DNA from: Streptacidiphilus carbonis
GTDB taxonomy: Bacteria > Actinomycetota > Actinomycetes > Streptomycetales > Streptomycetaceae
Length of the DNA stretch: 64,000 nucleotides
NCBI RefSeq assembly: GCF_000787775.1
Contig: NZ_BBPM01000005.1
Span: 133,378 to 197,377 of the forward strand
Direction: 5' to 3'
Shown here: positions 25,569-28,635 of the stretch, in pieces
Layout: each line of letters starts with the position of its first letter
Numbering within the stretch: position 1 is the stretch's first letter
Notes under the pieces: generated by a model
Database searches by the model: none
What the model saw: the letters and a program-made list of their open reading frames with translations, nothing else
What the model was told of the DNA's origin: nothing
Program-made: the position numbers and the translations under genes

Positions 25569-25584
25569 ATACCCACCGGGGTAT
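25569..25584. promoter_or_regulatory. CsoR/CstR-type operator 1
   Basis: ATACCCACCGGGGTAT has perfect half-sites ATACCC and GGGTAT around four bases, the form of CsoR-family operators. It overlaps a possible -10 (TATAGT at 25582-25587) of the regulator gene that follows. Confidence 0.72.
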
Positions 25585-25621
25585 AGTGGCGGGTAGAAGA
25601 CGAGGCGAAAGGACGAATCCC

Positions 25622-25888
25622 ATGCAGGTGGACGAATCAGCGACCGGCCCGGTGCTCAACCGGCTGCGGCGCGCGCAGGGCCAACTGGCCGGCGTCATCG
25701 CCATGATCGAGGCCGGACGCGACTGCAAGGACGTCGTCACCCAGCTCGCCGCGGTCTCCCGGGCGCTGGACCGGGCCGGATTCAAGATCGTCGCGAGCGG
25801 TATGCGCCAGTGCCTCGCCGAGGCCGACGGGCAGACCGCACCGATGACCGAGGCGGAGCTGGAGAAGCTCTTCCTGACTCTCGCCTGA
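25622..25888 (+). CDS. CsoR/CstR-family sensor repressor (CstR-like)
   Basis: An 88-residue all-helical DUF156 repressor. The two signature cysteines are Cys35 ([14 protein letters not shown]) and Cys64 (SGMRQC), 29 residues apart as in the family. The His ligand of copper-binding CsoR, expected at residue 60, is Gly. That C-x-C pattern without His is the one seen in CstR, which senses persulfide/sulfide by cross-linking its cysteines, rather than in copper sensors. ATG at 25622 has AAAGGA upstream. A matching operator overlaps its own promoter and another lies before the MMPL gene. DUF302 follows 33 bp downstream. Confidence 0.87.
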
Positions 25889-25921
25889 ACCGGCCCGAAC
25901 GACGCACCCTCTGGAGCGGAC

Positions 25922-26311
25922 ATGGACTACGGCATCACCGTCACCCTCGACACCCCCTTCCCCGAAGCGGTCGGCCTGGTCCGGGAGGCCCTGGCCGACC
26001 AGGGCTTCGGCGTCCTGACCGAGATCGACGTCCAGGCGACCCTGCGGGCCAAGCTCGGCGAGGAGATGGAGGACTACCTGATCCTCGGCGCCTGCAACCC
26101 GCCGCTGGCGCACCGGGCGCTCGCCGCCGACCGCCGCATCGGCCTGCTGCTGCCCTGCAACGTGGTCGTGCGCACCGCCGACGACCGCACGGTGGTGGAG
26201 GCGATGAACCCGCAGATCATGGTCCAGGTCACCGAAGAGCCCGAACTCGCCGCCGTCGCGGACGAAGCCACCGCCCGCCTGCACAAGGCACTGGCAGCCC
26301 TGGCCTCCTGA
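25922..26311 (+). CDS. DUF302 domain protein
   Basis: A 129-residue soluble protein of the DUF302 family, containing the LVREALADQGFGVLTEIDVQ block and the LGACNPPLAHRALAADRRIG block (residues 54-73), which holds the family's conserved Cys (Cys58) and Pro pair. DUF302 proteins are often found beside CsoR-like regulators, rhodaneses and sulfur or metal genes, and are thought to handle sulfur or metal species, though no activity is proven. It is almost certainly co-transcribed with the CstR-like gene. Confidence 0.87.
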   Translation: MDYGITVTLDTPFPEAVGLVREALADQGFGVLTEIDVQATLRAKLGEEMEDYLILGACNPPLAHRALAADRRIGLLLPCNVVVRTADDRTVVEAMNPQIMVQVTEEPELAAVADEATARLHKALAALAS

Positions 26312-26397
26312 CGATCCGACCGCAGCACCGCAAGGACCCTTAGGGCCGGACTCTCAGGTCCGACCCGGCCGGTCCCTGCCCTCGCATGCCCTTTTGC

Positions 26398-26413
26398 ATA
26401 CCCCCCTAGGTAT
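26398..26413. promoter_or_regulatory. CsoR/CstR-type operator 2
   Basis: ATACCCCCCTAGGTAT, 33 bp before the MMPL start codon. Its outer ATACC and GGTAT halves match operator 1, with one pair mismatched, so the same repressor could bind here and place the transporter in its regulon. Confidence 0.62.
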
Positions 26414-26445
26414 TTTTTCGGTCCTGGCCCGACAAGGAGCTTCCG

Positions 26446-28635
26446 TTGAACCGTCCCGAATCCGTCCTCACCGACAGCCCACCCGCACCGGTCGCGACCG
26501 CCCGGCCAGGAGCGCTCGGACGCCTGGGCGTGTGGTCCGTGCACCACGTGCGGACCGTGCTGGTCGGCTGGCTGCTGGTGGTCATCGCCTTGGGCGCCTT
26601 CGCCCCGCAGGTCACCTCCGCACTGTCCGGTGCCGGCTGGCAGGCCAACGGCTCCGACTCCGTCAAGGTCCGCCAACTCGCCCAGCAGCACTTCGCCGGC
26701 AACGCCTCCTCCGCCCTGCAGATCGTCGTCAGCTCGGACCGGCCGGTCAGCGACCCGGCCGTCCAGCAGGTCATCGCCAAGGCCGAGAAGCTGGCCGCCG
26801 CGGACCCGCGGGTGTCCACCGTGATCGGGCCGCAGCCCGGTGCCACCATCAGCCGCGACGGCCGCACCGCCATCCTGCTGGCCGGTGCCAAGGCCGGCCC
26901 CGATGACATGGTCCGCGCCGCCGACGCGCTCAAGGGACCGCTGGCCGCCCTGGCCACCGACGGCACCACCGTGCACGCCACCGGCGCCTCCGTGCTGTGG
27001 AGCGACTTCAACACCGCCAACCACGACGCGATGATGAAATCCGAGTTCATGTCCTGGCCGGTCACCCTGGCGATCCTGGTGCTGGCCTTCGGCTCGCTGG
27101 TCGCCGCCGGGCTGCCGCTGCTGCTCACCATGGCCGGCCTGGCCGCCTCCGCCGGATCGCTGGTGCTGATCGGCCATCTGTTCCCGGTATCGGTCTGGGC
27201 GATGAACTTCGCCATGATGTTCGCCCTGGCCCTGGGCATCGACTACGCGCTCTTCCTGGTGGTCCGCTTCCGCGCGGCCCGCAGCGGACCTGCCGGACCT
27301 GATCGAGCTGATCTACCTGCTCCGAGCACCGCGCAGGCGGTGGCCGAGACCATGGACACCGCCGGCAAGGCCGTCCTGCTGTCCGGCGCCACCGTACTGA
27401 TCAGCCTGTCCGCGGTGATGCTGGTGCCCTCCCCGGCCTTCCGGTCGATGGCCGGCGGCATCATGCTCGCGGTGCTGTTCGTGCTGGCCGCCACGCTGAC
27501 CCTGCTGCCCGCCGTCCTGGGCAAGCTCGGCCACCGCGTCGACGCCCTCGCGCTGCCCCGGTTCCGCTCCGGCGGCCACCGCTCAGCGCGCTTCGCCGCC
27601 TGGGGCGAGCGCTTGTGGAAGCACCCGCTGCGCTACGGCGCCGTCGCCCTCGCCGTCCTGCTGGCCCTGGCCGCACCGGTGATCGGCCTGCGCACCGCCA
27701 TGCCGTCCATCACGGTCATCCCCGCCACGGACAGCGCACGGGCCGGCTACACCACCGTCCAGCAGGCCTTCGGCCCCGGCGCCCCCGGCACCCTGCAGAT
27801 CATCACCCCCACCGCCCGGGCCGCCGACGCCGCCGCCAGGACGGGTGCCACCCCCGGCATCGCCGCCGTCATGCCCGCCCAGTCCGCCGCCGACGGCTCC
27901 GACTGGTCGATGATCCAGGCCGTGCCCACCGTCGACCCCTCCAGCCCGCAACTGAAGGCGACCGTGACCGCACTGCGCTCCGAACTGCCCGCCGGCAGTC
28001 TGGTGGGCGGCGCGGCCGTGGAGAACCTCGACCTGCAGCATGTGCTCGACCAGAAGACCCCCCTGGTCATCGGCGTCGTGCTGGCTCTCGGCTTCGTGCT
28101 GCTGCTCATCGCCCTGCAGGCACCGCTGATCGCCGCCCTCGGCACCCTGGCCAGCCTGCTGTCCACCGGCGCCGCGTTCGGCACCGCCCGGCTGATCTTC
28201 CAGGACGGCCACGGCGCGGGCCTGTTGGGGTTCCACTCCCAGGGCTTCCTGGACGGCTGGGCCCCGGTGTTCTTCTTCGCCATGATCTTCGCCATCGCGA
28301 TGGACTACACCGTCTTCCTGCTCGCCTCCGCCAAGGAGCACTACGAACGCAGCCACGACCCGCGCCAGGCCATGGTCGGCGCACTGGCCCACTCGGGACG
28401 GGTGGTCTTCGCCGCCGCCGCGGTCATGGTCGCGGTGTTCTTCACCTTCGCCCTGTCGGGCCCGCTGCCGCCCAAGGAGATGGGCATCGTCCTGGGCGTC
28501 GCCGTCCTGCTCGACGCCGCCCTGGTCCGCCTGGTCCTGCTCCCGGTCATGCTCCGCCTCACCGGCCATGCCGCCTGGCACACGCCCGCCTGGCTGCGCA
28601 GGATCCTGCCCGACATCACCTTCTCCCACGGCTGA
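26446..28635 (+). CDS. MMPL/RND-type membrane transporter
   Basis: A 729-residue transporter of the actinobacterial MMPL type with 11-12 membrane helices and two large extracytoplasmic domains (about residues 65-190 and 425-530). NFAMMFALALGIDYALFLVV and FAMIFAIAMDYTVFLLASA are the two proton-relay helices with the Asp-Tyr pairs typical of this family. The start codon is TTG at 26446, supported by AAGGAG eight bases upstream. MMPL proteins usually export lipids or hydrophobic molecules, and the substrate here is unknown. The operator in front of it ties it to the CstR-like regulator, an unusual partner for an MMPL protein. Confidence 0.9.
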   Translation: MNRPESVLTDSPPAPVATARPGALGRLGVWSVHHVRTVLVGWLLVVIALGAFAPQVTSALSGAGWQANGSDSVKVRQLAQQHFAGNASSALQIVVSSDRPVSDPAVQQVIAKAEKLAAADPRVSTVIGPQPGATISRDGRTAILLAGAKAGPDDMVRAADALKGPLAALATDGTTVHATGASVLWSDFNTANHDAMMKSEFMSWPVTLAILVLAFGSLVAAGLPLLLTMAGLAASAGSLVLIGHLFPVSVWAMNFAMMFALALGIDYALFLVVRFRAARSGPAGPDRADLPAPSTAQAVAETMDTAGKAVLLSGATVLISLSAVMLVPSPAFRSMAGGIMLAVLFVLAATLTLLPAVLGKLGHRVDALALPRFRSGGHRSARFAAWGERLWKHPLRYGAVALAVLLALAAPVIGLRTAMPSITVIPATDSARAGYTTVQQAFGPGAPGTLQIITPTARAADAAARTGATPGIAAVMPAQSAADGSDWSMIQAVPTVDPSSPQLKATVTALRSELPAGSLVGGAAVENLDLQHVLDQKTPLVIGVVLALGFVLLLIALQAPLIAALGTLASLLSTGAAFGTARLIFQDGHGAGLLGFHSQGFLDGWAPVFFFAMIFAIAMDYTVFLLASAKEHYERSHDPRQAMVGALAHSGRVVFAAAAVMVAVFFTFALSGPLPPKEMGIVLGVAVLLDAALVRLVLLPVMLRLTGHAAWHTPAWLRRILPDITFSHG

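Follow-up and report, generated by a model that had tools for sequence, protein, structure and literature searches.

In the published CstR regulons, as the available parts of the literature describe them, sulfane sulfur is detoxified through its oxidation, through sulfur transfer and through the export of sulfite. ScCsoR (SCO0620) of Streptomyces coelicolor binds ATACCn6GGTAT and represses a persulfide dioxygenase (PDO)-TauE unit, a rhodanese and itself; its Cys37 and Cys66 are both required for release by polysulfide (excerpts of PMC7533328). CstR of Staphylococcus aureus and the related protein 7MQ2 are CsoR-like dithiol persulfide sensors too, and their known targets are sulfur oxidation and sulfurtransfer genes, with no MMPL transporter among those in the sources examined (PMC9774590, in part). 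TTHA1953 of Thermus thermophilus is likewise a CsoR-family protein with two cysteines and a sulfur regulon, but its operator is TACNNTACNNNNGTANNGTA, its targets are Sox genes, and DUF302 is unmentioned in the main text (PMC10318464). The SUL modules of Arthrobacter plasmids have sulfur clusters that contain both a CsoR-family regulator and a DUF302 gene; they differ from the locus described here in carrying a sulfur dioxygenase, rhodaneses, TauE and a major facilitator superfamily transporter, with their MMPL gene in another module (PMC6305408, in part), and DUF302 genes have been reported with sulfur genes elsewhere (PMC5037610 and PMC6305408, both in part). We describe a three-gene locus in a 64,000-nucleotide stretch of Streptacidiphilus carbonis (contig NZ_BBPM01000005.1; the whole stretch is called the window) that resembles the ScCsoR system in regulator family, cysteine spacing, operator sequence and predicted self-regulation. 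The targets of ScCsoR are PDO-TauE and rhodanese genes, whereas those predicted here are a DUF302 gene and an MMPL transporter gene, in a genome where no full-length PDO was found. Judged by comparison of related loci, it is very probable that an MmpL3-fold transporter together with a two-cysteine DUF302 protein recurs as an output of CstR regulons in actinobacteria.

An earlier note on this DNA had proposed that a CstR-like regulator controls both genes through matched operators, one a perfect dyad and the other a near match. Both dyads are where it placed them, and both are perfect under the published ScCsoR consensus; the second carries one mismatch with the 6+6 pattern used in that note. 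In the 8.46-Mb genome, ATACCn6GGTAT occurs in exactly two places, operators 1 and 2 of this locus (Table 1), where a first-order model expects 0.28 sites and the backward control gave none. With the 6+6 pattern and two mismatches allowed, the window held 2 dyads against 0.57 expected, a mildly unusual count (at least two in 9 of 100 shuffles). One-mismatch forms of the consensus were found in 23 places genome-wide and in 17 in the backward control, so the looser sites are mostly chance. We considered one-mismatch sites as extra targets in this genome (21 places) and set them aside as being at about the control level. Two one-mismatch dyads with an intact TACCCC/GGGGTA core may each be an extra target or a chance match: C67:25880, inside a predicted gene, and C131:19027, about 77 bases 5' of a TetR-like gene. 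The genome has one further PF02583 match, and the 9 kb around it contained no TACCC-n4-GGGTA dyad with one mismatch allowed.

The relatives of the regulator were taken as the best 80 of 482 from one scan of GTDB representative contigs, with flanks of up to 6 kb, some of them cut by contig ends. An MMPL gene of at least 63% identity was present, no more than 3 kb away, at 23 of these 80 loci and a PDO gene at 33, the two together at one (L034). DUF302 genes occurred at 20, of which 14 also had the MMPL gene; PDO, rhodanese or TauE genes were present at 41, and 14 loci had none of the queried genes. The MMPL gene lay upstream on the same strand at 14 of its 23 loci, divergently at 7 and downstream at 2, in genera including Streptacidiphilus, Actinacidiphila, Actinomadura, Spirillospora, Frankia, Williamsia, Gordonia, Nocardia and Kitasatospora. 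The output had been called unusual: this holds against the known CstR targets, but its presence at 23 loci means that it is not peculiar to the window genome. On the regulator tree the MMPL labels were clustered (11 changes against 21 when shuffled), with at least three changes forced by the starred branches of that tree; dating the linkage by the tree was dropped because the alignment columns were too few. Three genomes have a second CstR-MMPL locus (L047/L049 in Williamsia sp. 1135, L065/L174 in Nocardia arizonensis and L034/L172 in Actinacidiphila rubida). Five loci (L005, L006, L009, L011 and L014; four Kitasatospora, one Frankia) carry a pair of CstR-type regulators on opposite strands, separated by 0.4-2.4 kb, with PDO near the pairs in the Kitasatospora loci.

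The dyads are linked to the same genes. In the 300 bases upstream of starts extrapolated from tblastn, with genes called by a simple custom script, an exact dyad preceded 21 of 23 MMPL genes, 26 of 32 PDO genes and 41 of 85 related regulator genes; when a single mismatch was allowed the counts rose to 23, 29 and 71. Other predicted genes had an exact dyad in 4 of 398 cases. Spacers of 4, 5, 7 or 8 gave no exact dyad at any MMPL (n = 23), PDO (n = 32) or regulator gene, and in the controls at one mismatch one regulator gene matched spacer 8 and one MMPL gene matched a scrambled arm pattern. Dyads 5' of MMPL genes are often paired, mostly 32-37 bases apart and 48-57 bases apart in other loci.

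Searches that did not start from the regulator gave a similar association. In 147 other genomes, sampled evenly from the class, we found 13 MMPL homologues in 11 genomes; none was found in the 10 listed genomes of the same family. A regulator gene lay within about 1.5 kb of 8 of the 13 (one regulator was just 44% identical), a DUF302 gene lay equally close to 8, and an exact dyad was present upstream of 5, or of 8 with at most one mismatch. Of the four MMPL-bearing genomes among 32 selected because a regulator is linked to PDO, three are Kitasatospora (stretches L202, L203 and L204, from the genomes of L014, L006 and L005). In these, both genes of a DUF302-MMPL pair are preceded by an exact dyad, and the 5 kb retrieved contain no regulator; the 16-mer of operator 2 is found unchanged 5' of MMPL in L202 and L204. 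In the fourth genome (L205) one-mismatch dyads lie 5' of MMPL and a regulator is adjacent. The 22 genomes in which a regulator is linked to MMPL contain 74 exact sites, against 4 in the control, although one of these genomes (G013) had no exact site. We examined 13 exact-site stretches away from the first locus, with 7 more listed sites outside this sample, and 11 of them adjoin MMPL, PDO, DUF302, thioredoxin or regulator genes, while L177 and L178 do not; one stretch chosen for its PDO (L185) had no dyad. Comparative genomics thus strongly supports the proposed control of MMPL and DUF302 through matched operators, including pairs that have no adjacent regulator.

An exact dyad also lies about 20 bases upstream of a thioredoxin gene at L010, L046, L052 and a locus seen as both L082 and L179, where the DUF302 gene follows the dyad-bearing thioredoxin gene. 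Thioredoxin is likely to be a further member of the regulon.

The regulator belongs to the CsoR/RcnR family (PF02583, 83.7 bits against a curated cut-off of 22.8). Its Cys35 and Cys64, with glycine at the position of the copper-ligand histidine, had been noted from the letters alone and are borne out when the protein is aligned with fragments from four chains of known structure: both cysteines are retained in all four, and Gly60 stands opposite asparagine in the CstR chain and histidine in the three metal sensors. The Cys35-x28-Cys64 spacing is that of Cys37 and Cys66 in ScCsoR, and by homology to that protein the regulator is inferred to sense persulfide. Three features support a CstR-type assignment: the Cys-Gly-Cys pattern, the ScCsoR-type operator and the sulfur genes at the related loci. 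The site at its own promoter, an exact ATACCn6GGTAT, is of the persulfide-sensor kind, a kind not exclusive to CstR. Sulfur-gene targets (PDO, rhodanese, TauE or sulfide:quinone oxidoreductase (SQR)) are absent from exact dyads in the window genome and present in relatives, and we therefore call the regulator CstR-type, a variant.

Several observations weigh against a sulfur-sensing regulon of this kind. The best match of the regulator in the PDB, at 44.5 bits, is the 7mq1-7mq3 set (CsoR according to the PDB table, with 7MQ2 named CstR in the legend to Figure 6 of PMC9774590, a source seen in part); it leads the next chain (42.4 bits) by just 2 bits, so that match alone decides little. The Cys-x28-Cys positions are kept in 87 of 87 rows (window and related loci), a conservation that is partly by construction, the related loci having been found in part with patterns that hold both cysteines. 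The ScCsoR site has been noted as similar to CsoR and RicR sites (PMC7533328, in part), so the dyad cannot separate CstR from CsoR. Five of the 13 class-wide MMPL homologues (L187, L188, L189, L190 and L192) had no dyad upstream with one mismatch allowed, and the MMPL-dyad link is therefore strong and not universal; L188 has rhodanese-like and TauE neighbours, L187 and L189 have DUF302, and L192 has a predicted ArsR-like gene (by eye). The window genome yielded no full-length PDO to a 464-residue query (full-length meaning at least 169 bits; partial matches reached at most 42 bits, and non-fused types, below 55 bits, could escape) and no SQR-like match at 1e-30, which 9 of 23 genomes have. As neither PDO nor SQR of the searched kind was found, no origin of sulfane sulfur is apparent here. 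The genome has eight rhodanese-domain matches, none beside an exact dyad.

Among 22 MMPL-type genomes a full-length PDO was found in 7 and not in 15, where non-fused forms could have escaped the query, and of the 32 genomes selected for PDO linkage 4 had this MMPL. The counts, from genome sets chosen by linkage, are suggestive of a reciprocal loss of PDO and MMPL.

We propose the following scheme. A CstR-type repressor, a tetramer by homology, would bind operator 1 at its own promoter, ahead of the regulator and DUF302 genes, and operator 2 at the MMPL promoter. Persulfide or polysulfide would modify Cys35, with Cys64 assisting, and the repressor would leave the DNA, as homology suggests, so that the DUF302 protein and the transporter are made together. 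The transporter would act as a proton-driven pump of the MmpL3 fold, its proton coupling again suggested by homology, and might move a hydrophobic product of sulfur stress (a sulfane-sulfur compound or a sulfur-damaged lipid, both guesses) out of the membrane or the cell; the DUF302 protein, with its two conserved cysteines, might handle sulfur on the cytoplasmic side, a role that is also guessed. From sequence comparison the regulon as drawn, with one repressor, two operators and three genes, is highly probable, and sulfane sulfur is a likely physiological inducer; regulon and inducer taken jointly are still probable. Export of a sulfur-stress product is our preferred but tentative guess, and lipid traffic is nearly as likely. 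It is a rather doubtful, more specific notion that some actinobacteria export excess sulfane sulfur where others oxidise it, their regulon having swapped PDO for an MmpL-type pump that clears the membrane of zero-valent sulfur (S8 or organic polysulfide) and has the DUF302 protein as its cytoplasmic sulfur-handling partner.

By sequence the transporter most resembles MmpL3 (152.6 bits), and its AlphaFold model (pLDDT 78.7, pTM 0.77, 20 sequences) has MmpL3 (6or2) as its best fold match, with a TM-score of 0.83 at 22% identity. It has the PF03176 domain, the MmpL fold and Asp-Tyr pairs in both halves; D266/Y267 and D620/Y621 align with the pairs of MmpL3 and stay unchanged in all 24 rows, and the protein has no cysteine. 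In MmpL3 the Asp-Tyr pairs carry protons. The likeness in fold and Asp-Tyr pairs extends to MmpL4/5, while identity (22-25%), regulation and genome context differ. It is possible, though on balance unlikely, that under the same regulon and the same sulfur trigger the transporter, like the trehalose monomycolate exporter MmpL3, has ordinary lipids or envelope precursors as its cargo, and that the response is one of envelope remodelling under sulfur stress. Both the best sequence and fold match and the alignment of the two Asp-Tyr pairs favour such a cargo. The NCBIfam equivalog model for MmpL3 scores 171.8 bits where its cut-off is 1400. Over long alignments the paralogues in the window genome share no more than 33% identity with this transporter, which makes it a separate branch. 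At these identities to MmpL3 and to the paralogues the cargo cannot be read across, and the patchy presence of the transporter in the class is unlike that of a housekeeping lipid exporter.

It is improbable that the cysteines sense some other thiol-reactive agent, such as an electrophile, an oxidant or a thiol-active antibiotic, which the transporter then exports. An MMPL pump would suit drug export, and the S. aureus CstR regulon is strongly induced by allicin, an effect ascribed to sulfur release in the same, partly available source (PMC6943732); close relatives of the regulator adjoin PDO, rhodanese and TauE under the same operator, and so sulfur chemistry is indicated. A copper-sensing CsoR acting at copper operators is a very improbable reading of the regulator and the dyads: the protein family and the resemblance to CsoR and RicR sites would allow it, but Gly60 breaks the Cys-His-Cys ligand set, on which ground we rejected this reading, and a Pfam search of the neighbouring proteins recognised no copper gene adjoining the regulator. 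Even less credible is a chance operator 2 with MMPL as a mere neighbour, which the near-chance rate of looser dyads might suggest, and which was rejected because the sole two exact genomic sites lie at this locus, related MMPL genes nearly all have the dyad and it is kept where the pair is unlinked from the regulator.

The features of the locus are collected in Table 1. All three genes were correctly placed in the earlier note, as the Pfam matches confirm, and its TTG start for the transporter aligns with the GTG starts of L202, L203 and L204. The DUF302 match far exceeds its curated cut-off of 23, and the two cysteines of that protein occur in 21 of 21 rows (window and related loci) and in 1j3m. 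The note also had dyad 1 overlapping the regulator promoter; the dyad itself stands and the overlap is plausible from a TATAGT box read by eye, although a sigma-70 consensus scan of 25400-26600 gave no promoter and did not pick up that box.

Table 1. Predicted genes and control elements of the CstR-type locus in the window
Feature	Positions	Strand	Basis
Regulator gene, 88 aa	25622-25888	+	PF02583, 83.7 bits; aligned to solved chains
DUF302 protein, 129 aa, Cys58 and Cys79	25922-26311	+	PF03625, 94.9 bits; solved relative 1j3m, 107 bits
MMPL transporter (resistance-nodulation-division superfamily), 729 aa, TTG start, D266/Y267 and D620/Y621	26446-28635	+	PF03176, 207.8 bits
Operator 1 (predicted), ATACCCACCGGGGTAT	25569-25584	none	centre about 45 bases 5' of regulator start
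Operator 2 (predicted), ATACCCCCCTAGGTAT	26398-26413	none	centre about 40 bases 5' of MMPL start
Possible -10 box (TATAGT) that overlaps operator 1	25582-25587	+	by eye; inference
Likely ribosome-binding site GAAAGGA of regulator gene	25607-25613	+	by eye
Likely ribosome-binding site AAGGAG of MMPL gene	26434-26439	+	by eye

Two neighbouring features lie outside the proposed regulon. Three direct repeats with 13-base spacing, GTGCATAGGTTCT-like, occupy 25474-25517, just before a divergent ArsR/HTH_20 gene (24875-25471, minus strand), and are probably the operator array of that regulator itself. Immediately 3' of the cluster, a long protein predicted on the opposite strand (29188-31116) has an He_PIG domain and a sub-threshold match to NTTRR-F1.

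What is new here is a predicted regulon of the CstR type with an MMPL transporter as its output, within a known kind of regulator; the open-access literature that we searched described no CstR-MMPL regulon, most subscription journals being outside the search, so that a report elsewhere is possible. If the proposal is correct, it would add a new output class to persulfide sensing, in genomes that often have no detected full-length PDO. It would also place a DUF302 protein in a physiological context and supply a concrete, testable inducer for an orphan MMPL subfamily. These observations suggest that some actinobacteria may meet reactive sulfur by pumping something out, beyond oxidation alone.

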